Below, in pieces: positions 17,945-60,063 of a DNA stretch of 64,000 bases. This DNA is from Magnolia sinica (lineage: Eukaryota > Streptophyta > Magnoliopsida > Magnoliales > Magnoliaceae). The stretch is from the NCBI RefSeq assembly GCF_029962835.1, contig NC_080590.1:56790001-56854000 (forward strand), given 5' to 3'. The notes below the pieces were generated by a model that did not search any database, had not been told where the DNA came from, and saw nothing but the letters and a program-made list of their open reading frames with translations. The position numbers were made by a program, and so were the translations under genes. The stretch's first letter is position 1. Every line of letters starts with the position of its first letter.

Positions 17945-19278
17945 TCAAACCATGATCATCAACACAATGGCGGCTATGCCAACCATCAATGCCTGATATC
18001 CAGCTGCCACGATCCCGTTCGCCGAGTTAGGCGCTTCAGCCTCTGGGCGCCATTGTGGTGGGGAAGCTGGAGCTAGCGAGTCTGAGACGGTGATCGCAAG
18101 CTTCTGGCCTCCTTTCGCACAGTGATCGCTCTTTCCACAGATGTACCACTTCCTGCCGGGGGTTACAAGGGTAATTATGTCATTTCCGGTGTTGAGAGAC
18201 TCGTTGGCTGGGGGAATAATGCAGTCCTTGAAGGCAGTCCCATTAACCTTGAAGACGTCGTGAAATGCGGCATCATATTTAAAAACTGCAATTAAACAAA
18301 TTTGGATATTATGAAGAGAGATTAGACATTGCTGTGAGACCCAATAATTAATGCTTTTGTTCAAGTCAACAGATGTTCGGTGGGACCCACGTGATCCCTC
18401 CTCTGTTAGGCCCATGGGTGGATGGATGGGCCTGTTTGAAGGAAATGGGAAAATGAAATTGGAAAATACATGGACTCATCATCTTCATGAATTTGCATTG
18501 GATTTAAATTTCACAAATCCCAGAGTTTAGTGTGTTTGGAAATCAAGTTACAAATGCATGGTCTTGGAAGTATTTGTTACAATGTCAGATAATTTATTAC
18601 AATAAAAAAAGCTTTCTTGCTTTATAGATTACTAAAAAAGTCTTTAATTGGATTTTCCCGAAATCTACCAAATGCATGAATCGAGAGGTATGGTTTCTGT
18701 AAGTCCAAAGAATCTTCCCAAATAATCCTAAAAGAAAAGGAAGAGAGATATGAAATCGAACAATCCCAACCATCTGATCAATGGACTTCTTTTCATCCTA
18801 CCAGCCATGGAAAATTAGATTTCTAACCACTCATTTAAAGTCCAACATTCTGAACCGTTAGATGGCAGCAGCATTGTCAACCCAAGGTGGACCTGCCAGA
18901 TGAACAATCTGGACTGCTAAAAAGGTGGGCCACACCTGCACAAAATACTGGCCTAGTTCGAGTTGTATTGAATTTTCCTTGATTGTAAAATTACTGAAAT
19001 AGTGGACACAAAAGAGAAAAGTTAGAACCAGCCTAAGGAGACTAACTCTTTCATTTGTTTTCATTTCTGCTTAGTTAGATCTGGCATCGAGTCGAGTCGG
19101 ACCAAGTTAGGGCTGACTTGATTCAGTTTTCAAATAGGCCTTACGCGAACTCAATCCGACTTGGTATCGAGTCCTGCATGCATGACCCTGATCCGAGTTT
19201 GGGTCTGGCGTGGACTGATCCGGACAATTTCGACCCAGTCAGAAATACTGAGTGAGGTCGAGTTAGCACCCAATCGGG

Positions 19279-21676: not shown

Positions 21677-22389
21677 TGTCAGTACACAATATGCGTTCCG
21701 GAGAGGACCACACCTCATGAAGCAATGACTGTAGGGCTAGTATTGAAACCTTCGTGGGGCACACCGGTTGCTTTATGTTCGATCTGACTTATTCATAAGG
21801 TCGCACATACTGGATGACGGGGAAACACAAATATGAGCTTGATCGAATCCAATTCTTGATTGTTGCCCGTGGTATGATTTGCTTGAGCTTTGATTATACC
21901 TATTTTAGGGCTAATGTCTTTAAAGAATTGAAAAAGAAAATAAAAACGAATCAATGGTGTGAATTTAAGGAGTACATCAGGTGAGAACCTAAATCCACCG
22001 GGTGGGTGTAAGTGCTAAGATGTTGAGCACACATAAGTTGTCGAATTTCGTAAAAACAAAATCACCTCAAAGTAAATCTTCTATGATCGGTCTTTGTTTA
22101 AGAGAAGATCAAGCTCAAGATCTGTCTTTGTTCAAGAGAAGATCAAGTTCAAGATCGATCTATGTTCAAGAAAAAATCAAGCTCAAGATTGGTGAGCTGA
22201 TATTTAAGATGAAGTCCGAGACACAATTAGAGTACAAATTCAAGACGAAGTCTGATACAAAGTTCAAGCCAAAGAAAATCAAATATTTGATATATCTCAG
22301 GTGATATAAAACCCTAGAAAGACCTTAGGACTAGGTACTTTCAAAATTGTTTAATTATGTGTGTTTTCACTTGTTTTGCCTGGAATTCA

Positions 22390-22735
22390 GCTAGTTTAAC
22401 TTTTGATTCGACCAGCTTAAGCTTCCTCGGCCAGTCCAACTTCAAGCTTGAATTGAATAATAACTTTTGTTGTAAATTCGGCTAGCCTGAGTTTTGGTTC
22501 GGTTAGCTCGAGAAAGTTCGGGCCAAATTCAACAACTTCAACTTTTGAAATTCGGGGGAATTCGACTAGCCGAAGGTCAAATTCGGCTAGCTGAATTGTG
22601 CTATTCGGTCAGCCAAAATAGACCTCGAGCTAGCCGCATTTTGGATAATTCTTATCCCGCGCAATCCGAAATCTGTTGAACAGAATTTGCTGAACTTATG
22701 CTACTCGAAGTCTATCTCAAGCTAGCCGATGTTCT
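22390..22735 (+). repeat. U3 palindrome array (CGGCTAGCCG type)
   Basis: Irregularly spaced words such as TTCGGCTAGCC, TCGACTAGCCGAAG, TTCGGCTAGCTGAA and GAGCTAGCCGCA surround a CTAG centre. The array stops just before the TATA box at 22,748. Confidence 0.8.
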
Positions 22736-22747
22736 AACTTCTTTACC

Positions 22748-22755
22748 TATAAATT
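22748..22755 (+). promoter_or_regulatory. TATA box of the solo LTR at 22,007
   Basis: CCTATAAATTG, about 17 bases after the last palindromic word. The Copia-2 LTR has the same box at 49,387-49,394. Confidence 0.65.
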
Positions 22756-23699
22756 GATTTCTTCTCTCATTATGAATTACACAAGTTAATTATCAAAATT
22801 CTTCTACAAGAGAGAGAGAAACTCAAGTTATTAGCAAGCTATTGGATGATATTTATAATTTATTTAAATAGTTTTTTCAATTCCCTTTAATCTCAGATCT
22901 TTTAAATTTAATCTAAGAGAGTAAACTATATTCCTCTTTGAGATCTAAGAGAATTGAATTAAGTAACTTTTGGGTTTAACAAAATTAAAATCAATAGAAC
23001 CCTAGACCCTTTCTATTTAACTGAACATGACACCATTTACATTCAGGAAAGAGGTTATTTTGCTACATCTTGTAAGGTAAAGATAAGTATACATTCTATA
23101 ACTCTTTTTAGGTTTTATTTGAGATCTCTTGTGAAAATCTTCATTAATGTTTTGTCGAGATAGCCTGGTAAAATCTTAGTTTAAGTTTTTATTATGATAG
23201 CTTGTGAAAATCACGAGGAATTGTATCGGGTTATTAAGGTGACCCTGTGAAAACATTTTCATAGTGAAAGCCAAAATTACGAGGGAAGTAATTTTGGGAG
23301 TGAAGTAAGTGTGGTTGTTTTTAAAGCACTGAACCACTATAATTCTTTATACCATGTGATAAATGCCTTATTTTTATTTGTGGTGGATTGAATGTATTTA
23401 ATTTTAGTTGTGTGGTGAATATTGTAATTCTTTAATTTACTCTTGAAAGTTTAAGGTTTTGATTTTAAAGAAATTCGTGAAATAAGATCGTCCTACCTAA
23501 AACTTTAGGTGAAGGTTGTCCTATGAATTATTTAGAATCAAAGTTTCAATACTCAAGCAATTGAGATGTTTTTATTATTTACATATTTAGAACTTATTTT
23601 GATTATTTGGCATTATCCTATTCCCCCGTCCCCCCCCCCCCTTCTAGGACATCATAAGCCCTACTTTTCAGTGGGACCCTCACTATGGGACTCACAATG

Positions 23700-35945: not shown

Positions 35946-36211
35946 CTTAAGCTTGATTTTCTCATAGTTCAAGAGAAGATCAAGCTTAAGACAGATCTAT
36001 ATTCAAGAGAAGATTAAGCTCAAGATCGGCTAATGTTCAAGAAAAGATTAAGCTCAAATTTAAGATGGAGTCTGAGACTAATTTCAAGACAACAAAGAAG
36101 AAAAAATATTTGATACATCTCAGGTGGTATAAAACCCTAGAAAAACCTTAGGACTAGGTGCTTTCAAAATGTTTAAATTTTGGATTTTTATGTGTTTTTT
36201 GCCTGGGATTT

Positions 36212-36470
36212 CACTACCAGAAAAGGGGGCAAAGGCTACGGATAAAATCCGTAGCCTTAGACCTATGGCTATGGTTCCAGTCCGTAGCATGACCGTAGTC
36301 GTAGGTGCCGTAACAATAGGTCTAGAACCTATAGCTACGGATTTAATCCGTAGCTATAGGTTACAACAGCTACGGATATAATCCGTAACAATTATATCTT
36401 TAGCGATAAGTATAAACAACTACGGATATTATTTGTAGCTAAAAGTCCGTTGCAATATGCCAAATTTAAT
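36212..36470. repeat. CACTA-2 left terminal and subterminal repeats
   Basis: After CACTACCAG come GGCTACGGATAAAATCCGTA, TATGGCTATGGTTCCAGTCC, then several TAGCTACGGATTTAATCC palindromes up to about 36,470. CACTA-3 has the same layout at 59,397. Confidence 0.9.
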
Positions 36471-36859
36471 AATGGCTACAGCTATCGGATTATCGGCTAC
36501 GATCAATATCCATGGCTATTTCGCACATTAAAAAAATTATATATAATCATTTGTTCATTCAATTACCAGCTGCATAATCATTCATTCATTCATTCCATTA
36601 CAATCAATTACAATCATTTATTCATTCAATTACAATCCTTTATTCAATCAATTACAATTATAATAAATTACAATCCTTCATTCAATCAATTACAATTACA
36701 ATTATAATAATGCTAAAAGTATAAATCTTTGGCTTCATTAGAGAAATTTGCTCGACTTCACCCTAAAATTTCAATGATAAAAAATTGAAAGAGAAGATAT
36801 ATTTTGACGGTATGATATTTTTTTCACAAGTAAATAGGCCTTTTTCAGCCATCACCCAC

Positions 36860-37036
36860 CTGAAGAATCAAAAACCGATTGTTGTCCAAGTCCACTCTAT
36901 TTCCTTTCAATTTTTTAGTGACCTCTGTAAAATTACTTCCACGATCATTTATGTAGTACTTTGAAGAGTTGTCTCAAAATGCAACTTTAGTAATGACAAA
37001 GTCACTTCTTGCAACAACTTCATATATTCCATCATC
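36860..37036 (-). pseudogene. SMC4: Captured exon of SMC4 (condensin ATPase)
   Basis: A 177-base, 59-codon exon on the minus strand starts after TTTGTAG (acceptor) and ends at ATTCTTCAG before GTGGGT (donor). It encodes DDGIYEVVARSDFVITKVAF, a stop, DNSSKYYINDRGSNFTEV, then TKKLKGNRVDLDNNRFLILQ. The tail matches the Q-loop region of the SMC4 N-terminal head, a core subunit of condensin. The stop is TGA where CGA (Arg) is expected, a C-to-T change. No neighbouring SMC4 exons are seen, so this is a fragment carried by the transposon, not a gene. Confidence 0.85.
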
Positions 37037-37309
37037 CTACAAATAGTCATGGCATTCATAAATCAGAATGACCATTGGGGGAAAGAAAAATAAAGTGAAA
37101 GAAGTGCATCATGTATAGCCATTTTCTTTTTTTTTTTTCTTTTTTTTCCTTAATGAATTAATAAAAACTCAAAGACGAATGAAATTGACACAAGGAATGG
37201 TCTCATCATATGGTTTGTAGGGCCAAAATAAACGTCTGGACGATTTCCGCAAGGAGGACCATCGGTAGCCACAAGTACCCACTTCCCAAGGAATGGTCTC
37301 ACCATATAG
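37037..37309. other. Intron-like flank of the SMC4 exon
   Basis: AT-rich sequence with a poly-T tract (37,129-37,148 region), plausible as captured intron. It also holds a duplicated AAGGAATGGTCTCA phrase at about 37,194 and 37,299. Nothing coding. Confidence 0.4.
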
Positions 37310-38676
37310 TTTAGGTTATAAGTTTATGTTAATGCTGTAGGTTATAGGTTTAGGTTTAGGTTTAGGGATTTGAGAATACATTTACGTTTTAGGTTTAGGT
37401 TTAGGTTTTACGTATAGGTTAAGGTTACAGGTTTAGGTTTAGGTTATAAGTGTAGGTTATAGGTTTAGGCGTAGGTTAGGTTATTTGTTAAGGTTTAGGG
37501 AATTAAGTTTAGGTTATAGGTTATAGGTTTAGGTTATAGGTTGTAGGTTGTAGCTTAAGGTTTAGGTTTAGGTTATAGGTTTCGATTTAGGTTATAGTTT
37601 TGGGATTTGAGAATAGGTTTAGGTTAATGTTATAGGTTATAGGTTTAGGTTATAAGTTTATGTTAATAATGTAGGTTATAGGTTTAGGTTTAGGGATTTG
37701 AGAATACATTTAGGTTTTAGTTTTAGGTTTAGGTTTTAGGTTTAGGTTAAGGTTATAGGTTTAGGTTTAGGTTATAGGTTATAACTTTAGGAAATTAAGA
37801 ATAGGTTTAGGTTTAGGTTTAGGAAATCGGTTCAAGTTCGGGATCGGGTTTAGGTTTGGGTTTTCAAGTTTAGGTTTAGGTTTAGGTTAAGGAGTTGAGA
37901 TTATGATTAGGTGTAGGTTTAGGTTTAGGGATTTGAGAATACACTTAGGTTTTAGGTTTAGTTTTAGGTTTTAGGTTTAGGTTATAGGTTTATGTTTAGG
38001 TTTAGGTTAATGTTCGGTTATAGGTTATAAGTTTAGGTTATAGGTTATAGGTTATAGGTTATATGTTAAGGTTTAGGTTATAGGTTTTAGTTTAGGTTAA
38101 GGTTATAGGTTTTGGTTTAGGTTAAGGTTTAGGTTAAGGTTATAGGTTTAGGTTTAGGTTTAGGTTTAGGTTATATGTTATATGTTATAGGTTATAGCTT
38201 TTGGGAATTGAGAATAGATTAAGGTTTAGGTTTAGGAAATCAGGTTCGGGTTTGGGATTGGGTTTAAGTTTGGGTTTTCAAGTTTAGGTTTAGGTTTAGG
38301 GATTTGAGAATACATTTAGGTTATAGGTTTAGGTTATAGGTTTAGGTTTAGGTTTTAGGTTTAGATTAAGGTTTGGTTATTGGTTATAGGTTATACGTTA
38401 TAGGTTATAAGTTAAGGTTTAGGTTATAGGTTTAGGTTTAGGTTTAGGTTTTAGGTTTAGATTAAGGTTTGGTTATTGGTTATAGGTTATACGTTATAGG
38501 TTATAAGTTAAGGTTTAGGTTATAGGTTTAGGTTTAGGTTAAGGTTATAGGTTATAGGTTTAGGTTTAGGTTATAGGTTTAGGTTATAGGTTTAGGTTAG
38601 GTTTAAGTTTAGGTTTAGGTTATAGGTAATAGCTTTAGGGAATTGAGAATAGGTTAAGGTTTAGGTTTAGGAAATC

Positions 38677-38697
38677 GGGTTCGGGTTCGGGATTGGG
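38677..38697 (+). other. G-quadruplex motif in the array
   Basis: Four GGG runs separated by three-base loops (TTC, TTC, ATT). Identical patterns lie at 39,022-39,042 and 41,453-41,473 (last loop ATC); other units have degraded versions. Confidence 0.75.
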
Positions 38698-39021
38698 TTT
38701 AGGTTTGGGTTTTCAAGTTTAGGTTTAGGTTTAGGTTAGGGAGTTGAGATTAGGATTAGGTGTAGGTTTAGGTTTAGGGATTTGAGAATACATTTAGGTT
38801 TTAGGTTTATGTTTAGGTTTTAGGTTTAGGTTAAGGTTTAGGTTAATGTTAGGTTATAGGTTTTAAGTTTAAGGTATAGGTTGTAGGTTATAGGTTAAGG
38901 TTTAGGTTATAGGTTTTAGTTTAGGTTAAGGTTATAGGTTTAGGTTTAGGTTATAGGTTATATGTTATAGGTTATAGCTTTTGGGAATTGAGAATAAGTT
39001 AAGGTTTAGGTTTAGGAAATC

Positions 39022-39042
39022 GGGTTCGGGTTCGGGATTGGG
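39022..39042 (+). other. G-quadruplex motif in the array
   Basis: GGG runs at 39,022, 39,028, 39,034 and 39,040 with loops TTC, TTC and ATT. Confidence 0.75.
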
Positions 39043-41452
39043 TTTAAGCTTGGGTTTTTAAGTTTAGGTTTAGGTTTAGGTTAGGGAGTTGAGATTAGGA
39101 TTATGTGTAGGTTTAGGTTTAGGGATTTGAGAATACATTTAGGTTTTAGGTTTAGGTTATAGGTTTTGGTTTAGGTTTTAGGTTTAGGTTAAGGTTTGGT
39201 TATATGTTATAGGTTATAGGTTATAGGTTAAGGTTTAAGCTATAGGTTTACGTTTAGGTTAAGGTTATAGGTTTAGTTTTAGGTTTAGGTTATAGGTTTA
39301 TGTTATAGCTTACAGCTTTAGGGAATTGAGAGTAGGCTAAGGTTTATGTTTAGGAAATTGGGTTCGAGTTCGGGATCCAGTTTAGGTTTGGGTTTTCAAG
39401 TTTAGGTTAGGTTTAAGGTAGGGAGTTGAGAATAGGATTAGGTGTAGGTTTAGGTTTAGGGATTTGAGAATACATTTAGGTTTTAGGTTTAGGTTTAGGT
39501 ATTAGGTTTAGGTTATAGGTTTAGGTTAATGTTAGGTTATTAGTTATAAGTTTAAGTTATAGGCTATAGGTTATAGGTTAAGGTTTAGGTTATAGGTTTT
39601 GGTTTAGGTCAAGGTTATAGGTTGAGGTTTAGGTTTTTATTATAGGTTATAGCATTTGGGAATTGAGAATAGGTTAAGGTTTAGGTTTAGGAAATCGGGT
39701 TCGGGTTTGGGATTCGGTTTAAGTTTGGGTTTTCAAGTTTAGGTTTTGGTTTAGGCTAGGGAGTTGAGATTAGGATTAGGTGTAGGTTTATGTTTACGGA
39801 TTTGAGAATACATTTAGATTTTTAGTTTAGGTTATAGGTTTGGGTTAAGGTTTGGTTATAGGTGCTAAGTTTAGGTTATAGGTTATAGGTTATATGTTAA
39901 GGTTTAGGTTATAGATTTTGGTTTAGGTTAAGGTTATAGGTTTAGGTTTAGGTTTAGGTTATAGGTTTAGGTTAGGGTTAGGTTTAGGTTATAGATTATA
40001 GTTTTTGGGAATTGAGAATTGGTTAAGGTTTCGGTTTAGGAAATCGGGTTCGGAATCTGGATCGGGTTTAGGTTTGGGTTTTCAAGTTTAGGTTTAGGTT
40101 TAGGTTAGGGAGTTGAGATTATGATTAAGTGTAGGTTTAGGTTTAGGGATTTGAGAATACATTTAGATTTTGGTTTTAGGTTAAGGTTAAGGTTATAATT
40201 TTAGGTTAGGTTTAGGTTTAGGTTATTGGTTATATGTTATAGGTTATAGTTTTTGGGAATTGAGAATTGGTTAAGGTTTAGGTTTAGGAAATCGGGTTCG
40301 GTTCGGGATCGGGTTTAGGTTTGGGTTTTGAAGTTTAGGTTTAGGTTAGGGAGTTGAGAGTAAGATTAGGTGTAGGTTTAGGTTTAGGGATTTGAGAATA
40401 CATTTAGATTTAGGTTTTAGGTTTAGGTTAAGTTTATAGGTTTAGGTTTAGGTTATAGGTTATAGGTTATAAGTTATAGCTTTAGGGAATTGAGAATAGG
40501 TTAAGGTTTGGTTTAGGAAATTGTGTTCAAATTTAGGATCAGGTTTAGGTTTGGGTTTTCAAGTTTAGGTTTAGGTTTAGGTTAAGGAGTTGAGATTAGG
40601 ATTAGGTGTAGGTTTAGGTTTAAGGATTGGAGAAAACATTTAGGTTTTCGGTTTAGGTTCAGGTTTTTGGTTTAGGTTATAGGTTTAGGTTAACGTTAGG
40701 TTATAGGTTATAAGTTTAAGTTATAGGTTATAGGTTATAGGTTAAGGTTTAGGTTATAGGTTTTGGTTTAGGTTTAGGTTAAGGTTTAGGTTTAGGTTAT
40801 AGGTTATATCTTTTGGGAATTGAGAATAGGTTAAGGTTTAGGTTTAGGAAATCGAGTTTGGGTTCGGGATTGAGTTTAAATTTGGGTTTTCAATTTTAGG
40901 TTTAGGTTTAGGTTAGGGAGTTGAGATTAGGATTAGGTGTAGGTTTGGGTTTAGGGATTTGAGAATACATTTAGGTTTTCAGTTTAGGTTAAGGTTTGGT
41001 TATAGGTGATAAGTTTTGGTTATAGGTTATAGGTTATATGTTAAGGTTTAGGTTATAGGTTTTCATTTAGGTTAAGGCTATAGGTTTAGGTTTAGGTTTA
41101 GGTTATAGGTTTAGGTTAGGTTTAGGTTTAGGTTATAGGTTATATGTTATAGGTTATAGTTTTTGGGAATTGAGAATTGGTTAAGGTTTAGGTTTAGAAA
41201 ATGGGGTTCGGGTTCAGGATCGGTTTTAGGTTTGGGTTTTCAAGTTTAGGTTTAAGTTTAGGTTAGGGAGTTGAGATTCAGATTAGGTGTAGGTTTAGGT
41301 TTTGGGATTTGAGAATACATTTAGATTTAGGTTATAGGTTTAGGTTAAGGTTATAGGTTTAGGTTTAAGTTTAGGTTATAGGTTATATGTTATAGGCTAT
41401 AGTTTTTGGGAATTGAGAATTGGTTAAGGTTTAGGTTTAGGTTTAGGAAATC

Positions 41453-41473
41453 GGGTTCGGGTTCGGGATCGGG
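41453..41473 (+). other. G-quadruplex motif in the array
   Basis: GGG runs at 41,453, 41,459, 41,465 and 41,471 with loops TTC, TTC and ATC. Confidence 0.75.
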
Positions 41474-42009
41474 TTTAAGGTTTGGGTTTTCAAGTTTAGG
41501 TTTAGGTTAGGGAGTTGAGATTAGGATTAGGAGTAGGTTTAGGTTTAGGGATTTGAGAATATATTTAGATTTAGGTTTTAGGTTTAAGTTAAGGTTTTAG
41601 GTTTATGTTATAGGTTATATGGTATAGCTTTAGGGAATTGAGAATAGGTTAAGGTTTAGGTTTAAGAAATCGTGTTCAGGTTTGGGATCGGGTTTAGGTT
41701 TGGGTTTTCAAGTTTAGGTTTAGGTTTAGGTTAAGGAGTTGAGATTAGGATTAGGTGTAGATTTTGGTTTAATGATTTGAGAATACATTTAGGTTTTAGG
41801 TTTAGGTTCACGTTTATAGGTTTAGGTTAGGTTTAGGGCATGGTTTAGGTTAAGGTTATAGGTTTAGGTTAGGTTTAGGTTTAGGTTTAGGTTAAGGTTA
41901 TTGGTTTAGGTTAGGTTTTGGTTTAGGTTATAGGTTATAGCTTTAGGGAATTGAGAATAGGTTTAGGTTATAGGTTTGGGGTGTGGTTTAGGTAAAGGGT
42001 GTGGTCCGT

Positions 42010-42345
42010 GCAAATACAGATATAAACACGGCCTGCTCTAATTGGTCAGGCCCCTCCAATGCTGTCCATAGGAAATGGACAGCTTTATCATGGTCATAAC
42101 AGCGGTTCTCACCTTCTCGGGACCCCTGCTCATCCGGATAGCTCCGACGTACATCTGGGTCTCCTCCATCAATTTCAAGCAAATACAGATATAAACATGG
42201 CCTGTCCAAATGGCCAGGCCACTCCAATGTTGTTCATAGGAAATGGACAGCTTCATCATGGTCATAACCGCGGTTCCCACCTTCTAGGGACCTCCGCTCA
42301 ACATCCAAATAGCTCCGACGCACATCCGGGTCTACTCCAATTTTT
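42010..42345 (+). repeat. 169-bp tandem duplication
   Basis: GCAAATACAGATATAAACA starts both copies (42,010 and 42,179). They share GGAAATGGACAGCTT, ATCATGGTCATAAC and ATAGCTCCGACG and differ at scattered bases. The period is not a multiple of three, so the overlapping minus-strand frames are unlikely to be a repeated protein. Confidence 0.85.
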
Positions 42346-43215
42346 ATGGAATTATGCATGTGTTACTCATGAGCATGCCTAATATTGCCAATGCATGGGA
42401 TTCAGCACAAATACCTTTTCATGATTCAAAAAAGGGAACTCGAGGGTTGTCCTTACCTTCCATTGTATGCTTCCAAGGTGTAGATGGCCCTTGAAACAAA
42501 CATACATCCTGGGAATTGCTTCTTAAAACCGCAGACTGTTTTGTTGTGAAACTCGTTCATCTAACCTGAAAACCTGCCACATAATGAATAACTGTAACCA
42601 CAATGATAACTATTGTGAATGCATTATAATGAATAAATTATTATTATTATAGATAACTGTAATTACAACATAGATATCATGCACACGATATCACATAATG
42701 TATTATTTGATGAACTACACATGTGCATTCTTGGATGTAAAAGTTGAATGCCAATTTGCAACACAGAAGGGAAAAAATCCAAGTGAAAAAGAACAATCCA
42801 TCATTCCAAATTCCATCTTCTGTAAGAAGAATAGCAAGTGAACAAACACACGATACGAATTGCAAGTGTTTTTTTTTCCTATAAGAGAAAAATCAAGAAA
42901 CCCACCAATCAAAATGCAATCTTTTGACTTCTTCAAGAAGAGAATGAAGTGAACAACACCACCTACAACAAAAATGCAATATTTCCAGTTTTGCAAGAGA
43001 AAACTCAAGAAAGCAAACACAACCCACCATTCAAAAAGTGCAGTCTTGTGGATTCCAAAATGCAAGAAAACAATCACAACCCACCAATCAAAAATGCAAT
43101 CTTTTCACCCTTCTAACTAAAATCCACCAAAAAAAAAAACCAAGAAGGAAATCAGCACCCACTCCATAAAACCAAAGAAAGATGCAATCCTGAAGGAGTA
43201 TTAGAAGAGACTCAC
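42346..43215. other. CACTA-2 interior, no gene seen
   Basis: AT-rich sequence with loosely repeated phrases (CAATCACAACCCACCAATCAAAA-like text at 42,895-43,105 recurs three to four times at about 60-100 bases). No exon recognised. Confidence 0.4.
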
Positions 43216-43331
43216 CTACAAGCAATGGAATTCCTGAGTTGGGTGTTGAATTTCAGCCCTTTTTCAAGAGATTTATGGCCTGCTAGAGCTCTAATCTCAT
43301 TGCCCATCTGGCAAATCTTAGCAACAATATC
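43216..43331 (-). other. Unidentified exon-like open segment
   Basis: On the minus strand DIVAKICQMGNEIRALAGHK is followed by SLEKGLKFNTQLRNSIAC and a canonical donor TGTAG|GTGAGT. The composition looks like real coding sequence. I do not recognise the protein. It lies downstream of and in the same direction as the SnRK2 exon. Confidence 0.35.
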
Positions 43332-43515
43332 TCTTCAGCAGCAATAGGAATGACCAGCTTGCATGAATAGCAGTGAGGGTCTGTTACAATGTAGGAAAAC
43401 CTATGAAAGAACCTACATACATGACAGAGTGAAATGAATGGGAGCTACTAGTCACCTCTACCTTTTGATTGAATACACCATTTTGTGTGGCAGTAATGAC
43501 AAGCCAAGTACTAAC

Positions 43516-43620
43516 CTGTATTGTCTTGCTAAAGTTCTTGGGCTCCTCAGGGTCCTCAAAAGGGTATGCACCCACTAGCATGACATAGAGGGTTACTCCA
43601 CATGACCACACATCCGCAAT
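43516..43620 (-). pseudogene. Captured exon of a SnRK2 protein kinase
   Basis: A 105-base, 35-codon exon with acceptor TTCAG and donor GTTAGT encodes [20 protein letters not shown] and [15 protein letters not shown]. This is the C-lobe segment of plant SnRK2 kinases, which act in abscisic acid and osmotic stress signalling. The length and both borders fit my recollection of one complete exon of that family, and there is no stop. FSKTIQ instead of FRKTIQ is a likely substitution. No ATP-binding or catalytic-loop exon is nearby, so no active kinase can be made. Confidence 0.88.
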
Positions 43621-46178
43621 CTGAATTACAGTAGTAAAAACAGCTAGTAAGCAGAGTAGATTTGAAATCATGACCATAAAAATAAGAGGCAAAAATACTT
43701 TTCCTTCGAAGTTTACAAGTGTTCATCTATCAAAATCATACCAATAGGAAAATAGCGGGTGTATATAACAACGAAAATTCTTGGATTTCATGTAATGACA
43801 ACAGTCAATACCTATTACAATTTCATAAAGCATGGGAAAGAAGAATTGATATTTGCACCCACATTTTGATATGCCCAATCATTTGAAGCAGTTTATGTTC
43901 AAAATCCATGTTGTACATCCAAATACCTATTTTGGGCATGTTGAACTGGAACTGCTGGCATAAAATCTTTTGATTTGGGCAGACCACTCATGGTTCAGAG
44001 CATTTTTTGTTGTTATTTGCTGCATTGAAAAGTTAAATAAATAAATAAATGAACAAAAAACAAGAAGCATTAATCCTCAAGTACATATGAAAATGAACAA
44101 GACCCCATGCTTACAACAACAAAAATCTGTAGATAAACAAAGGACAGTTATGAGCATGGTAAGATGACCCACAACGTGTCAAATGATGAGATGATACAAC
44201 TATCAGCCAAAGATTTGCTGATAAGGGCTAAACAAATGTTACCTTCAAAGCCAGCTCTTAGACAAACATCTGAGCGAGTTCTTGCACCGAACTTTCCAGG
44301 ATTATTCAAAGACAACCATCATTACAATCAATTCAATTCAATACTAGTAAGAATGATCACCTACAACCAGTTGCATGTGAACTTCAGATGAAACCCCGTT
44401 CACGTCATGTGTATGACACATCAGGTTATGCATAAGATGAAGGCCACTTGGCATAGAAATCAGAAAAATCCACTGATCAGGAAAGACAGACATGCACGTT
44501 GAATCAGACAGTTAACAGTTCCAATTAAAAACACTCATTGTTTTCATATAGGGTGGCTTCCTGATGAGCAGGCTAACCAATTTTTTGCAGCAGGTGATTG
44601 TCATAGTGAATCCCACCTTATGCATCGCTCAGATGTCCTACACATGACACTTTGGCGTATGAGCAAGCTTGCATGTGAACTTCACATGCAACTGGTTGTT
44701 TGTGATGATTCCTCATAAAAGTGATATTGAACATCTATTTACTTCAATTGCTATTTTTTCTATTGTATTTAATTTGTTAGGAGTCTTAGACTATTTCCAA
44801 TATAAATACCTTTATAAGAAAATAGTTTTCCAGAATTGTAAAAAAATATAGCAATCTGATCACAATTCCCAGCATTCGAATTCAAATTCCAGCATCTGTA
44901 AAACTTTTTTCCAGTTACTGCCAGTCGGTGTCTGATTTATCTAGACATAAACAACCATTTAGTCAATAACAGGATTTTAATAAGCAGGGTATAACAATTT
45001 CAGGTTTCAATTTGTACAAGTGGGTCCCATGGTGAACAAGTTTAGTAAATCAATACTACGAACTTCACAAAATGACTAACAGAGTAAACAAACTTAGTAA
45101 ATCAATACTACAAACTGAACAAACTGATGGTGAACTAAGCTCAATGAATTGGATTCATTAAGCACCTCAAGAATCCAAACTGCAAACTGAACCTGAATTT
45201 AACGGAACCATGACTATGAAAACTGTGTGTGACATGACATCCCAGCCATCTTTCATATGGGCTCACCACATAGATGACTTGGTCCTAGAGTCAGGTCATT
45301 CTACTCATCGAAAGATTAATTTATCCAGCGACATCAAATTGATAAGATAATTGGAATAGTCCAATCGTAGTCAACTACTAAACAGAGGCATGTGAATGTT
45401 AGTTAATTATCATATAATTGAATGATACATGTGCCAATGCTTACATGCTAAGGCAATGCAACTGTCTCCCTTTCACCAGGAAGCACCAACAAGCATGCAT
45501 GTATTTTATCCATATGTTCACAAATTTCAACTAACTGATTTAATCCTTTCTCACTTTTCTTTTCCTTTTTTCCCAGAAGAACAAGGAAAAGATCAAAGGC
45601 AATCTCAAATAGTTGGCGGAAAGTTATGACAATGGCAATGATGGTGGCCAACAAGGAAAATGCCTGGGCCAAGAGCTTGTCTAGTGAGCTTGGGTTTTCA
45701 GCATGAACAGGTGAGGCCCATGCATCAGTGATCCAATTATACAATGCTGGGTCTCAACATGGATGGTCCATGCGCTGAAAATCCTGAATGTGCATCTGCC
45801 CATGCATATACTGCAGGTGGGCCCCACATTTTCAACTTATTGGTTGGCTCCACTATGAGCATGACTTGGGCCAAAGCTTAGGCCAGATGTGCCTGAGAGA
45901 AATGGATGATAGGACAAATATGACCAATGTTCTGCAGTCAACATATATGAAGAACGAGGGGTGAACCTCATAATTATCATGTTGAAGCTAATTTACTAGT
46001 TTATATAACATCATTTCCACTTATAATAGAAAAATAACAAAGTACATTATTTTCAAGTATTTTATTTATTCATTGATCCACAAAAGCATAGCTTATCAAT
46101 AAAAATATAGTTACCATCAAATACGTACTGAGAAATTAAGTATTGCACAAATGGTCTTTAATAGAATAGTACATGCAC
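43621..46178. other. CACTA-2 interior between captured exons
   Basis: Mostly AT-rich and intron-like. A minus-strand stretch PGKFGARTRSDVCLRAGFE near 44,245-44,305, followed by a GTAACA donor, may be another exon fragment, but I do not recognise it. A small inverted repeat element lies at 44,360-44,705. Nothing else is supported. Confidence 0.4.
44360..44705. repeat. MITE-like element with inverted CAACCAGTTGCATGTGAA ends
   Basis: CAACCAGTTGCATGTGAACTT at about 44,366 is mirrored by AAGTTCACATGCAACTGGTTG-type sequence at about 44,676-44,700. The arms are about 18-20 bases and the interior is non-coding. Confidence 0.5.
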
Positions 46179-46250
46179 CTTCTTTTGGATCCTCTTGTCT
46201 GTTGTATCAACATCAACATAATAACCTGCTTGATGAATCTAATCCCATAC
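46179..46250 (-). pseudogene. Captured exon of threonyl-tRNA synthetase
   Basis: A 72-base, 24-codon segment with acceptor TTCCACAG and donor GTGCAT encodes VWD, a stop, then IHQAGYYVDVDTTDKRIQKK. This is the anticodon-binding domain of threonyl-tRNA synthetase. Relative to the form I expect (VRDQIH), both changes, Arg to Trp and Gln to stop, are single C-to-T events. Its direction matches the other captured exons. Confidence 0.8.
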
Positions 46251-46439
46251 CTGTGGAAATGTAGGAATAACATCAAAATCCATTCAACTTCTACATCATG
46301 CAGATAGAAAGAGGTAAAACTCTTAGTTGATATTAAAGTTCTCAAAAGCATTGTGTCCTAGATCCTTGATGTTTTTTTTTTTTTTTTTTTAAAGAAATTA
46401 CTATCTCAACTCCAAGGAGCATTTTCTGGAAGGCTACTC

Positions 46440-46844
46440 AACTTATATTATTATTATTTTTTGAAAGATCTCATATTAAAGAAAAAGAAGAAGAAGAATA
46501 GAAGATGAGAAGGCCTCCATTACAAGTACAAGAAAAAAGACAAAACATGACCAAAAAGGAAGGGAGGGAAAAAAAGATCAACTTGCATAAAAGGACTCTC
46601 GGGTGGAATGGATTCAAGGAAAGAGACATCCTAAAAGTAAGGGAAGACATTGCCCGTCCTGTAGCCATGAAAAGGATTCTCCAACATAGCATGCCAATCT
46701 GCTAAGACTTGCTTGCAAAGATTCTACAACATCTTTCATTCCAGATTCACCAAAATACAATAAAAGGAAGCATCTTCCAAGACACATCTCCATGATTAAA
46801 AAAAAAAAAAGCGTTGCACGTCCATACCACATGCAATTCAGCAA
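46440..46844 (-). mobile_element. Probable LINE 3' remnant
   Basis: The minus strand reads FSCTCNGGLLIFYSSSSFSL then a stop, then AATATGAGATCTTTC and a tail of (AAT)n (about 46,448-46,462). A worn frame (ESGMKDVVESLQASLSRLAC) precedes it. A short C-terminal frame with an AAT-type tail is what 5'-truncated plant L1 elements leave. No reverse transcriptase motif is present, so the call is weak. Confidence 0.35.
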
Positions 46845-47006
46845 TCAAGTGACAAGAGAACTAAACAAAATAGAAGAGCCTTAAAAAAGGAATTTCCACA
46901 CACCTTCAGATGCCACACAATGGATATTTGTCAATTCTTCTGCCTCCCATAAAGCACATGTCAATTCTTATGCCTCCCATAATTTAAAATTTTTAATATA
47001 CACATT

Positions 47007-47048
47007 CAGTTGGGCATGCCAAAGCTCAGCGTATAGATCATCATTTCC
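47007..47048 (-). pseudogene. Probable captured ARF (auxin response factor) N-terminal fragment
   Basis: After the acceptor CTGATTTTAG the minus strand encodes GNDDLYAELWHAQL. Plant ARF proteins start with DxLYxELWHACAGPLV, and an intron commonly precedes this stretch. Similarity is lost after WHA. Only about ten residues support it. Confidence 0.45.
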
Positions 47049-47219
47049 ATCTAAAATCAGAGAATTGTAACAATTTCATACATCTATGAATCTTGTGAAA
47101 TATAAGAAGATGAAATTGGTGTTGAAAAAAGCGGCCCCTCTAAAAGAAGATCCATGATTCTTCAGACTGATCTAAATTAAGGGAACCCTCTGTGAAAGAG
47201 CATACAAAATGCCTTTCCC

Positions 47220-47660
47220 AAGGTAGAAATAACCTAAAAATATTCTAGATTAGAACACCATTGTATGAAAAAGCAAAAGATACCAATACAAACATACATA
47301 CATACATAAATGCAGGCTGGTTAAATGCATTTACTTCAATCATTCAAGGGAGAAATAACCCAAAAAATCCTACATTAGGACATCACTATATGAAAAGGAA
47401 AAAGAATACAATGCCACAACTATACATGCATACATGACACATGCATGCATGCATGCAACAAAAAGGGATTGGTTGAGTCTTTGAAGGGAGAAATGACCCA
47501 AATGTGTCCAACACCACCTAAAGTGCCAAATCCACAGATTCATGCATACATACATACATGCAAGGGATGCAAGCAAATGGATATTTTAGTTCAGTCTTTG
47601 AAGAGGAAAATAACCCAAATGTGTCCTACATTAAGACACCATTTCATGAAAAAACAACAA
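47220..47660 (+). repeat. Four diverged tandem repeats of about 115-140 bp
   Basis: AGAAATAACCCAAAAAATCC-type phrases followed by TACATTAGGACACCATT and TATGAAAAA occur at about 47,226, 47,351, 47,490 and 47,605. Between them lie CATACATACATA and GCATGCATGCATG runs. Confidence 0.75.
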
Positions 47661-47751
47661 TAAAATACAGTACCATCAGCATATATGACTGAATGTGTCA
47701 AGTAGGAAAATGGGTATTCTTGTTTATTTTTCAAAGAAATGAAAAATCCCA

Positions 47752-47759
47752 TATATATA

Positions 47760-47808
<49 letters not shown>
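47752..47808. repeat. (TA)n microsatellite
   Basis: An almost pure TA run of about 55 bases with one GTG interruption. Confidence 0.95.
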
Positions 47809-47811
<3 letters not shown>

Positions 47812-48294
47812 AAAAATGTCTAATCCCCAAGTGATCTTTTAATGTGGTAGATAAAATTCCATAAATTAAAAAAAAAAAATCATATATAAATGTAACCTTC
47901 CTTACTAAACAAACAGAAGAAAACAAAAATTCATAAAAAAGCAAACAGAACTCAAAATATAAAATAATAAAAAACCCCTTGTGACCACAAACACTAGTTT
48001 TTTTTTTAAGAGAGAGATAACTCAAAAACCAAATGGTATAGTTCATAACTAGTAATAACAAAACCCCAGTAAATGCACTAATAATAATAAAAAGGGTAAA
48101 ATGGGAAACAATGATGGGCAATCCAATATTTTCAAGCATGAAGGAAACTGAATACAACTCACACTGTCAAAGACAAAAATTCAATTAAAAGCACGAATCA
48201 TGCATTCAAGCAGCAAAATTAAATCACTAACCCACTTGTCATCATGATCTCAGCTGGAATTTTTTTAAAAAAAGGTTGAAAGTGGAGATGATAC

Positions 48295-48560
48295 CTCGTT
48301 TCTACAGTGGAGCTGGATACGTAATAGGAAAGGAGGAGGGATGGGGAAACTCCTCGTATATTGGCGGAACAACCTCTATAGTGGTTGATGCGTCAGAGAT
48401 CGACGCCGACAGGGATGGCTGGAAAAATCTAGCGGCCATCTGCGTATTCCGGCGAGAGACAGATACAGAGGGATGACTGAAAAACCCTAACGGCGACATG
48501 AGAGAGAGAGAGAGAGAGAGAGAATTTAGGTTTTGGGAGAGGGACGGGCGCGCGAGAGAG
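48295..48560 (-). other. Right-end first-exon-like region with CT-rich leader
   Basis: The minus strand has a (CT)n leader (48,500-48,525), an ATG at 48,499 and a 65-codon frame MSPLGFFSHPSVSVSRRNTQ ... ITYPAPL ending at 48,302. A donor-like GAG|GTATCA follows at 48,295. It resembles the 5' leader and first exon of a plant gene. I do not recognise the peptide. It lies upstream of and co-directional with all captured exons in CACTA-2. CACTA-1 has a CT-rich leader at the equivalent place. Confidence 0.45.
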
Positions 48561-48610
48561 ATTTGAGGAATTTGGGTTGCACGCGGGATTGTGTTTTGGG
48601 GGCGGTGATG

Positions 48611-48930
48611 AATGACACTTTTAAGTGCTTAGTTTTAGGTCATGTGGGGCCCACCGTGATGTATGTTATTTATCTAATCCGTCCATTCAATTTAAAACAT
48701 CATTTTAATGGTTGATCCAAAAAATGAGTTATATCGAAGCTGTAAGCGGACCACATAAAATATTAATAATAGAAATTTATTTATTTTTTATTTCTTATGG
48801 TGTGGTCCAATTAGACGTTCAATCTACTTACTTTTTGGGCTCATTCACTGAAATTATATATTAAAATTTATGAACGGATTAGATAAAACACATATATTCC
48901 AATGAGCCCCTTAAGCACCATCCATCTCTA
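48611..48930. repeat. Foldback MITE inside CACTA-2
   Basis: The left arm TGTGGGGCCCACCGTGATGT and the right arm (GATTAGATAAAACACATATA, TTCCAATGAGCCCC) are inverted, with TTTTAAGTGCTTA and CCTTAAGCACC outside. It is orthologous in position to 1,385-1,705. Confidence 0.72.
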
Positions 48931-48954
48931 ATAATATCCCGGTGGAAGCTAGGC

Positions 48955-49051
48955 TTTAGCTATAGATTAAGTAGTTTTTAGCTACGGATTAAATCCGTAG
49001 CATCTTAAAAACTTCTAAAGTCCGTAGCCTTTACTTGATTTTTTGGTAGTG
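48955..49051. repeat. CACTA-2 right terminal and subterminal repeats
   Basis: TAGCTATAGATTAAG, TAGCTACGGATTAAATCC and GTCCGTAGCC lead to the terminus GGTAGTG. Confidence 0.9.
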
Positions 49052-49059
49052 TTTGGCCA

Positions 49060-49370
49060 TCCTAACTTTTTGTTCAGCCAGCTCAACTTCAAGCCCGAAT
49101 CGAATAACAACTTTTGTTGTAAATTTGGCTAGCCCGAGTTTTGGTTTGGCTAGCTCGAGCTTAAAATTCGGCTAGCCCAAGAAAGTTTGGGTCAAATTTC
49201 AGTAGCTTTGACTTTTGGAATTCGGCTCTCCGAATTGTGTTGTTCGGCCAGCCAAAGTACACCTAAGGCTAGCTAAATTTTGGATAATTCTTATCTCGCG
49301 TAATCCGAAATCTGTTGAATAGAATCTGATGAACTTAGGCTAGTTGAAGCCTATCTCAGGCTAACCGAAG
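49060..49370 (+). repeat. U3 palindrome array of the Copia-2 LTR
   Basis: Words such as GGCTAGCCCGAG, TCGGCTAGCCCAAG, CGGCCAGCC and GGCTAGC recur as in the sister LTR at 22,390-22,735. The TATA box TATAAATT follows at 49,387-49,394. Confidence 0.75.
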
Positions 49371-50307
49371 TTCTAACTTCTTTGCCTATAAATTGAGTTC
49401 TCCTCTCATTCCGAACTATATAAGTTAATTATCAAAATCCTTCTACAGGAGACATAAGCTCAAGTTATTAACAAGCTATTGAACGGTATTTATAATTTAA
49501 TTTATATAGTTTTTTTCAATTCCTTTTATCTCAGATATTTCAAGTTTGGTTCTAAAGAGAGTAAACTATACTCCTCTTTTGAGATCTAAGAGAATTTATT
49601 TAAGTAGCCTTTGGGTTTAACTTAATTAAAATCAATAGAATCCTACACCCTTTCTATCTGACTGAACAAGGAACAATCTACATTTAAGAAATAAGTTATC
49701 CGGCTACAAGCTTTTGATACGTCTTTTACGATGAAGATAAGTATATCTTCTAAACTCTTTTAAGTTTTTCTGAGATAGCCTGTTAAAATCTCAGTTAAGG
49801 TTTTGTTTGAGATAGCCTGTAAAATCTCAGTTTCGGTTTGATTGTGATAACTTGTGAAAATCACAAGAATCGTATAAGGTTATTAAAGTGAACCTGAGAT
49901 AACCTTTTCATAGTGAAAGCCAAAATTACGAGGGAAGTAATTTTGGGACTGGAGTAGGTGTGGTTGTTTTTAAAGCACTGAACCGCTATAACCCTTTGTA
50001 CCATGTGGTGAATGCCTGTATTTTATTTGCGGTGGATTGATCGTATTTAATTTCAATGGAGTGGTGAATGTTTTAATATTTTAATTTATTCTTACAAGTT
50101 TGAAGTTTTAATTTTAAAGAAATTTGTGAAATAAGGTTGTCTTGCCTAAAACTTTAGGTGAAGGTTGTCCTACGAATTATTTGGAATCAACGGTTTAATA
50201 CTTAAGCAATTGAGATCTTTACTTTATTTACATATTTAATATTTATTTCAATTTTTTGGCATTGTCCTATTCACCCCTTTATGACATCTTAAGCTCTACT
50301 TTTCAAG

Positions 50308-50319
50308 TGGTATCAGAGC
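50308..50319 (+). other. Copia-2 primer binding site
   Basis: TGGTATCAGAGC, two bases after the LTR end CTACTTTTCA (50,305). It is complementary to initiator methionine tRNA. Confidence 0.95.
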
Positions 50320-59396: not shown

Positions 59397-59720
59397 CACT
59401 ACCAAAAAACTAGGAAAAGGTTATGAATAAAAACCATAGCTAAAGGCCTATGACTACGGTTAATGTCTGTAGCACGACCGTAGCCATTGGTACCGTAGCC
59501 ATAGGTCTGGAAGTTATAGCTACAGATTTAATCTGTAGCCATAAAAACAATAGGTACAGATTAAATCTGTAGCATAATTTCCATAGCTCTAAAGTATATA
59601 CAGCTACGGATTATATCTGTATCTAAAATTATAACGAGAACTATAGCAATAGGCTGAAATTAGCAACAACTACGGTTTCTAGATAAATAGCTACGGTTAA
59701 TAGCCGTAGCTAATGCTTAT
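59397..59720. repeat. CACTA-3 left terminal and subterminal repeats
   Basis: At least six copies of TAGCTACGG-like words in both orientations, several worn by C-to-T changes (CTACAGATTTAATCTGTAG). Confidence 0.88.
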
Positions 59721-59929
59721 TTTTTTTTTTAAAATAATAATAAAAATATAATAATGGCATCTCTTACCATTGTAGTACATGCCTTGATAAATCAACTCAT
59801 ATAAGCTAATCTAGATCAATACTTCATAGCTAAATCATTCATTAATTCAATCAAACACAATCAATCATTTTAATTCATTCACAAAAGTTCAATGCCAACA
59901 TAATAGTTATATGTCGATTTAAAGTTCTC

Positions 59930-60063
59930 ATTGATAGAAGATCCAATGCCTTCTCGCAGCCAAATAGCTTCTCAACAATCACAAGCGAGAACTCCATGGA
60001 TGTGCCTCTACTGGTTATCAATTTACCATCAACTAACACCGTATTCTCAGCTTCACTTTGATC
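59930..60063 (-). pseudogene. Captured fragment of a DJ-1/PfpI-family gene
   Basis: The minus strand encodes DQSEAENTVLVDGKLITSRG and TSMEFSLVIVEKLFGCEKAL. The VDGxLITSRGPGTxxEFAL-IVE motif marks the C-terminal part of plant DJ-1 domains, which have glyoxalase or redox-chaperone roles. The PG expected after SRG is missing, a six-base deletion. A stop lies just upstream of DQSEAE. After KALDL it reads LSMRT rather than the usual continuation. The direction is the same as for the exons in CACTA-2. Confidence 0.75.

Follow-up and report, generated by a model that had tools for sequence, protein, structure and literature searches.

A complete Pack-CACTA element in Magnolia sinica carrying exons of SMC4, SnRK2 and threonyl-tRNA synthetase genes in a single direction

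Within the window, the 64,000-nucleotide stretch of Magnolia sinica DNA analysed here, positions 36,212-49,051 form a complete 12.8-kb CACTA element whose exons lie on the minus strand. The sequence-only reading had proposed a complete Pack-CACTA with inverted ends, a TTT target duplication and co-oriented exons from three or more unrelated host genes; the tips, the duplication and three of the proposed exon identities bear this out. The terminal inverted repeats, beginning with CACTACCAGAAAA on the left (36,212-36,242, plus strand) and located at 49,021-49,051 on the right (minus strand), match over 31 nt at 81% identity. CACTACCA tips, as expected for the CACTA superfamily, stand at 36,212 (plus) and 49,051 (minus), and the 3-bp target site duplication reads TTT at both 36,209-36,211 and 49,052-49,054. 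The 13-mer CACTACCAGAAAA occurs at 468+427 places in the genome compared with 30+23 for a reversed-pattern control. Repeats of GCTACGGAT, counted in both orientations in the left subterminal region (36,212-36,530, plus strand), cluster at both element ends like the subterminal repeats of CACTA (En/Spm) elements, with 27 window matches at up to one mismatch against 4.9 expected. The element sits inside a repeat, and a related empty site is found at approximately 22,387 in the same window within a copy of that flanking repeat.

No transposase family appeared among Pfam matches to E 0.05 when 91 stop-free pieces, each 40 aa or longer, were scanned on both strands outside the satellite, a scan in which a transposase in shorter pieces could be missed. 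Within that scope the element has no transposase of its own, and through SMC4, SnRK2 and threonyl-tRNA synthetase (ThrRS) it carries host gene pieces that include coding sequence, as is characteristic of Pack-CACTA. Pfam matches to OST-HTH, Ion_trans and DUF1158 (0.017-0.021, 91 members) and to DUF2701, DUF7390 and DUF6558 (0.11-0.98) were taken as chance.

Three exons are identified, each on the minus strand, in phase 0-0 and with AG before and GT after. The SMC4 exon (36,860-37,036; 177 bp, 59 codons) matches SMC4 in the PDB with E 3.7e-13 and contains one in-frame TGA. The SnRK2 exon (43,516-43,620; 105 bp, 35 codons) is open and matches SAPK10 in the PDB with E 1.3e-18; two bacterial kinase models among the profile matches were taken as general kinase similarity. 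For the ThrRS exon (46,179-46,250; 72 bp, 24 codons) the PDB gave no relevant match, only one unrelated row at E 1.6, and a large protein database was therefore used, in which all 17 of 17 matches are ThrRS by name or Pfam domains (best E 1.2e-5) and all those with an organism name are from plants. This exon has an in-frame TAG at codon 4, so that two of the three identified exons of the element carry in-frame stops, which the sequence-only reading passes over. A probable ARF piece at 47,007-47,048 did not survive scrutiny, as none of ten PDB rows to E 10 is an ARF, no Pfam or NCBIfam match was obtained, and AA rather than GT follows it. The additional exon of unstated identity suggested at 43,216-43,331 (minus strand) retains its 5' splice site, TAG|GTGAGT, and is a putative exon without a protein relative in PDB, Pfam, NCBIfam or protein searches; its segment also occurs on C12. 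Two Tako8 chains matched to it had a whole-chain E of 1.4e-20 that is the sum of eight weak one-motif repeats, none of which passes singly, and both chains were dropped together with four weaker rows.

Capture at the DNA level, as proposed from the intron flanks, is confirmed for ThrRS by a donor gene. Twenty matches spanning residue 1 to 726 define a ThrRS gene on C13, and the 1,012-base window stretch 45,950-46,961 (minus strand) matches it across intron and exon at C13:16057781-16058799. In each of the 14 other copies examined, the captured segment has the same two ends to within 8 bases. A second candidate donor, C14:13920973, was rejected; with a single exon and 70-71% identity it is another old ThrRS copy, which resembles the donor stretch at 70% over part of its length and lacks the two shared segment ends. 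For SMC4 and SnRK2, exons with intron flanks point to the same route. The suggested search for donor loci succeeded for ThrRS, and the SMC4 donor gene was not located among the 40 scored of 779 candidates. The SMC4 module, which comprises exon and intron flanks (36,729-37,290, minus strand), is a genome repeat. With 40 of the 779 candidates scored, it is present in the window and at 39 or more other places, those 39 showing 89-94% identity across 568 or more of 612 bases. This amplified exon would be a caution for gene annotation of this genome.

The remainder of the element is modular. A TTTAGG-like satellite array (37,309-41,993), for which one period of 230 bp was found and which is common to members on C1, C4 and C6, occupies 4.7 kb or about one third of the element and goes unmentioned in the sequence-only reading. 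It is followed by module alpha (41,990-42,769), which contains a 168-bp tandem pair and has pieces in the C6 element at 89-93%, and by module beta (42,765-43,486, minus strand), which is 92% identical to C12:16280647-16281398 and, among 40 scored of 859 candidates, has no further match apart from the copies on C4 and C9. The SnRK2 module (43,484-43,878, minus strand) has 95% identity to the C6 element, which in turn goes on matching its own relatives over 3.4 kb, the following SnRK2 exon included. Assignment of the SnRK2 loci on C6, C14 and C4 to a different repeat family was rejected for the C6 locus, which belongs to the same CACTA family. Next come module delta (43,876-45,520) and module epsilon (45,146-47,870), which contains the ThrRS capture and starts at 45,146 in 12 of 14 other copies examined, while the C4 and C9 composites extend further left. 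The right end with its leader-like stretch (48,586-49,051, minus strand) is common to element A (1356-1849), the C9 copy and the C6 element (from 48,632), and because these have the same end, the idea that a host 5' end was captured as the leader was given up.

The element is a mosaic, with a left half that matches an element on C6 and a right half, carrying ThrRS, that resembles other family members. On C6, a second complete CACTA element of 12,530 bp, with an AGT/AGT duplication and a TOR exon, has in common with the window element the left end, SMC4, satellite, alpha, SnRK2 and right end. The C10 member has a CACTA left end followed by delta and the ThrRS segment, without SMC4, satellite or SnRK2, and resembles the C6 element in the left end only; no right tip was seen in the stretch examined. 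The composite of the two halves is present on C18 (window), on C4, where satellite through SnRK2 to ThrRS recurs without SMC4, and on C9, where in the right part of the copy examined the putative exon, SnRK2, ThrRS and right end recur together. The C9 copy is colinear with 45,942-49,052 as far as the tip (90.7% identity), and exact TGGTAGTG is absent from it although the copy ends at the right place.

Our results make it very probable that this is a complete non-autonomous Pack-CACTA in which host genes were captured as DNA and two halves were joined, the whole then moving as a unit. Family members copied pieces of host genes, as the donor gene shows for ThrRS and as the intron-flanked exons suggest for SMC4 and SnRK2. 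A further segment matches a C12 locus, from which it was presumably copied. Comparison with the C6 and C10 members shows that a left half (SMC4, satellite, SnRK2) was joined by recombination to a right half (ThrRS) at a 3-nt overlap around 43,876-43,878. The composite afterwards moved as a single unit, as its occurrences in the window, on C9 and, lacking SMC4, on C4 indicate, presumably through transposase from other elements. The exons now seem to be drifting with splice borders still present, and could join transcripts started either at the element's right end or within a host gene. The exons occur in other members too and were not all captured by this copy; recombination assembled the set that it now carries.

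An origin of the exons in several separately inserted, nested elements would account for the modularity, for the presence of several modules apart from each other elsewhere, and for an inverted repeat at 48,646-48,910 that resembles an old nested MITE. Yet no internal CACTACCA tip is found within the element, SMC4 and SnRK2 are united in the C6 element, which has an AGT duplication of its own, and the series leading from the putative exon via SnRK2 and ThrRS to the right tip is found again on C9, as is satellite-SnRK2-ThrRS on C4. Separate insertions in differing orientations, which the sequence-only reading had itself raised as an alternative, are therefore very unlikely. Acquisition via reverse-transcribed mRNA, for which there is precedent in the transcribed sequence captured by other plant elements according to a review (PMC13317346), is scarcely credible given that approximately 920-940 of the compared ThrRS positions are intron matching the donor gene and that the SMC4, SnRK2 and putative exon segments extend beyond the AG/GT borders in other copies.

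Selection on the exons, with the element acting either as a domesticated chimeric gene or as regulator of the donor genes, might be suspected from their co-orientation behind a common leader-like right end and from the preservation of splice borders, with AG in 15/15 and GT in 14/15 ThrRS copies and AG in 16/17 and GT in 17/17 SMC4 copies, as well as from the 9 of 15 ThrRS exon copies that are open. Chance alone, however, would probably keep most AG/GT borders at such divergence. ThrRS copies differ from the donor about alike in exon (44/1077 positions) and intron (702/13989), with 35 nonsynonymous changes against 1 synonymous (12 gap-free copies, repeats of shared changes included). Between SMC4 copies, exon and flank divergence is 6.1% and 5.5%, nonsynonymous changes (81 versus 22 synonymous) make up 79% compared with 72% expected without selection, and 9 of 17 copies are disabled. 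The SMC4 and ThrRS copies thus show no sign of coding constraint, selection is very unlikely, and the host exons look like neutral passengers of the Pack-CACTA.

A single spliced chimeric transcript from the element is possible. In this copy, in-frame stops prevent the ThrRS and SMC4 exons from being read through into a fusion protein, and a chimeric protein from it is unlikely. TOR and DJ-1 pieces are seen in other family members. All five identified family genes (SMC4, SnRK2, ThrRS, TOR and DJ-1) point inward from the right end (two-sided sign test 0.0625). A bolder idea, which we consider unlikely, is that host exons are acquired or retained by the family only when they lie in sense behind its own CT-rich right-end leader, each member being a mobile promoter with an exon trap, and that SMC4 has in this way been spread to at least 40 and perhaps hundreds of places as a ready-made spliceable exon. 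A literature search on directional capture gave nothing useful. If upheld by a full survey, a single capture direction in five genes would require explanation, the candidates being a coupling of capture with transcription and selection that acts on splicing out of host genes.

Gene capture by CACTA elements is already known and its steps are seldom visible. Here one donor gene, the parental types and the composite stand side by side in a single genome, so that the hybrid formation proposed for Pack-CACTA can be tested directly. The kind of element is itself known as Pack-CACTA, of which soybean Tgm-Express1 is an example, a CACTA element with five unrelated host gene fragments that were shown in 2007 to be spliced into chimeric transcripts (PMC1947982); the idea of a chimeric transcript is therefore not new. 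Both elements have CACTA ends and exon-plus-intron fragments of unrelated genes with GT/AG kept, but Tgm-Express1 is 5.7 kb, lies in an intron of an expressed gene and has RT-PCR evidence, whereas the window element is 12.8 kb, lies in a repeat and includes a large satellite array. Chenopodium CACTA elements likewise contain captured gene fragments and satellite arrays; the search for them relied on tips together with a putatively functional ORF 1 (PMC8978399), whereas no transposase domain was found here. Pack-TYPE elements, including Pack-CACTA, are described as non-autonomous and TIR-bounded with gene pieces from several loci (PMC8903248), and hybrids form from neighbours in the model of Catoni et al. 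2019, as relayed in two later papers (PMC8903248, PMC13317346). The window element is similarly non-autonomous and TIR-bounded, and its two halves fit such hybrid formation. In contrast to the Pack-TYPE elements described there (PMC8903248), two parent kinds and their composite can be distinguished here within a single genome, where a host exon segment also occurs at 40 or more places.

The CACTA transposon at 36,212-49,051 is one mobile unit, assembled from two kinds of parent and moved later, in which a threonyl-tRNA synthetase (ThrRS) segment was captured at the DNA level. It starts with CACTACCAGAAAA and closes with an imperfect inverted copy of the same (31 nt, 81%), is flanked left and right by TTT, and carries GCTACGGAT repeats in both orientations clustered at either end; the window holds 27 matches with at most one mismatch, against 4.9 expected. 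Across the 1.84-Gb genome the 13-mer tip was counted 468+427 times, compared with 30+23 for a reversed-pattern control. Within the window, the left flank (35,967-36,210) matches 22,130-22,387 at 77% and the right flank (49,074-50,310) matches 22,427-23,674 at 80%. The two flanks are parts of one repeat and, as both match within 22,130-23,674, the position near 22,387 is a related empty site. The host repeat sits among what we take to be Ty1/copia-like reading frames.

Two further family members lie partly in the window. Element A has its right end at 1,849, the rest being beyond the window edge, and matches the 12.8-kb element over 48,586-48,908 (1,356-1,673, 82%) and 48,911-49,051 (1,686-1,849, 73%). 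Element C has its left tip at 59,397 and its remainder outside. The right end of element A (1,356-1,849) holds a long CT-rich leader-like stretch, and a MITE-like segment at 48,646-48,910, with 110-nt arms that are 71% complementary, recurs at the right end of element A and of a copy on contig C9. A 4.7-kb TTTAGG-like satellite at 37,309-41,993, whose longer unit measures about 230-350 bp, resembles telomere repeat variants and likewise occurs in members on C1, C4 and C6. Elsewhere in the window, 17,945-18,415 on the minus strand is an open frame resembling a phytocyanin exon.

Protein searches bore out three of the minus-strand exons proposed in the sequence-only reading, each with AG before and GT after, a length that is a multiple of three and phase 0 at both ends. 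The SMC4 exon (36,860-37,036, 59 codons with one in-frame TGA) matches SMC4 in the PDB at E 3.7e-13, and the SnRK2 exon (43,516-43,620, 35 codons, open) matches SAPK10 there at E 1.3e-18. The ThrRS exon (46,179-46,250, 24 codons with an in-frame TAG) has no relevant PDB match; in a set of 5.8 billion proteins the 17 returned are all identified as threonyl-tRNA synthetase by their names or Pfam domains, with a best E of 1.2e-5, and every one that bears an organism name is from a plant. The putative minus-strand exon at 43,216-43,331 shows a GTGAGT 5' splice site, and the protein searches gave no relative for it; the probable ARF piece at 47,007-47,048 was not supported. No transposase came up when 91 stop-free pieces of 40 aa or more from outside the satellite (51 plus, 40 minus) were scanned against Pfam; at E up to 0.05 there were four matching families with one member each, and kinase (1.6e-5) was the only match beyond chance for 91 scans. 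The scan is weak for single exons, as the SMC4 piece went unreported yet the whole exon alone scored 0.018, and plus-strand captures may therefore be present. The stretch 45,511-45,784 also matches a C2 cluster (25.58-25.77 Mb) and two places on C8 at 83-96%, and is possibly a further captured gene or repeat.

The ThrRS donor lies on the minus strand at C13:16,053,496-16,115,295, where 20 matches, at 63-100% identity to Magnolia sinica, begin at residue 1 of a Magnolia ThrRS and reach residue 726. The DNA-level capture that had been deduced from intron flanks holds for this gene, since 45,950-46,961 matches C13:16,057,781-16,058,799 across the exon and the intron sequence on both sides of it at 91.9%, gaps counted. 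All 14 further copies examined (L010-L023, out of 42 matches) have a donor match that starts at donor base 574-582 and stops at 1,600; these shared ends make a single capture, later multiplied, the most likely history. A C14 copy matches part of the donor stretch at 70% and has different ends. Across 15 copies including that in the window, substitutions from the donor number 44 in 1,077 exon positions and 702 in 13,989 intron positions. The exon is open in 9 of the 15, with AG kept in 15 and GT in 14, and in the 12 gap-free copies 35 of its changes are nonsynonymous against 1 synonymous, a count that includes recurrences of shared changes.

The SMC4 segment (36,700-37,311) was found at 40 places including the window, the 39 others being 89-94% identical over 568 or more of its 612 bases, together with one 59-base piece. 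These come from 40 scored candidates among 779 at first look; a total of hundreds is a guess because the other 739 are unscored, and the SMC4 gene itself is absent among the scored 40. In 17 copies (the window, 14 other loci returned by the segment search, the C6 element and the SMC4-bearing C1 element L008), pairs of copies differ on average by 6.1% within the exon and 5.5% within the flanks, and differences from the majority number 34, 37 and 32 at codon positions 1, 2 and 3. Exon changes are 81 nonsynonymous to 22 synonymous, a nonsynonymous share of 79% where 72% would be expected in the absence of selection with transitions weighted, and 9 of the 17 copies are disabled. Neither the SMC4 nor the ThrRS copies carry a sign of coding constraint, and the SMC4 exon segment at its 40 places is likely to give rise to false gene models. 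Among 15 left ends compared, that of L008 is nearest to the window's (90.4%, next best 84.1%).

Two relatives account for the mosaic. Element X, a complete CACTA of 12,530 bp (C6:54,342,743-54,355,272) bearing the same tips and flanked by an AGT/AGT duplication, shares the left end with SMC4 (36,212-37,305, 86%), the satellite, 41,990-42,769 in pieces (89-93%), the SnRK2 module (43,484-43,878, 95%) and the right end (48,632-49,051, 76%), and has no match to 43,879-48,631 at E 1e-6. X and its C4 and C14 relatives are similar across 3.4 kb around SnRK2, and in the C4 relative the following SnRK2 exon is also visible, interrupted by a stop. A C10 element, in whose retrieved stretch no right tip turned up, has the left end, its only part matching X, followed by 43,876-45,520 and then 45,511-47,972 with ThrRS. 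The window element is thus made up of a left half of the X kind and a right half of the C10 kind, which overlap by 3 nt (43,876-43,878) where they meet. Among 40 scored of 859 candidates, the segment 42,765-43,486, which sits between 41,990-42,769 and the SnRK2 module with joint overlaps of 5 and 3 nt, has counterparts outside the window only in the two composites, on C4 and C9, and at C12:16,280,647 (92%). The C4 composite lacks SMC4 and matches 38,769-47,365 at 89%; the C9 composite, compared without its left part, matches 42,703-45,842 at 93% and 45,942-49,052 at 90.7% and has a mutated right tip. The short overlaps fit either template switching or end joining, a choice left to inference, and PMC8903248 and PMC13317346 describe for Pack-CACTA hybrids a proposed route through neighbouring insertions and complementary terminal deletions.

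That the captured exons share one direction, as first read, agrees with SMC4, SnRK2 and ThrRS all being on the minus strand, inward from the right end. A TOR exon in X (C6:54,345,370-54,345,492, L038 positions 264-386; PDB mTOR, E 2.6e-5) and a DJ-1 exon in the left part of element C (59,878-60,063, minus; PDB DJ-1, E 6.8e-4) also read inward, the direction of element C being taken from its left end as its right end is beyond the window. The DJ-1/PfpI-like assignment is weak but consistent (PF01965 in Pfam at 0.016, which falls short of the curated cut-off). Five of five genes gives a two-sided sign test of 0.0625, and the exon at 43,216-43,331, oriented from splice borders alone, would raise the count to six. 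Ascertainment bias is possible because the TOR and DJ-1 exons were spotted by eye in translations. Searches of open-licence papers turned up, among those listed, no account of CACTA elements capturing genes in one direction. Transposase would come in trans, and transcription of the captured exons would start at the right-end leader or at host genes. A fusion protein read through the ThrRS and SMC4 exons of the window copy is unlikely, as both carry stops.

According to PMC1947982, Tgm-Express1 is a CACTA element with five unrelated gene pieces, from whose locus 12 different transcripts were cloned; the element described here similarly carries several unrelated gene pieces. Satellite arrays within CACTA elements, as here, are likewise reported in PMC8978399. 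Gene-piece capture and inner satellites are therefore already known in CACTA elements, to which the window element adds another example.
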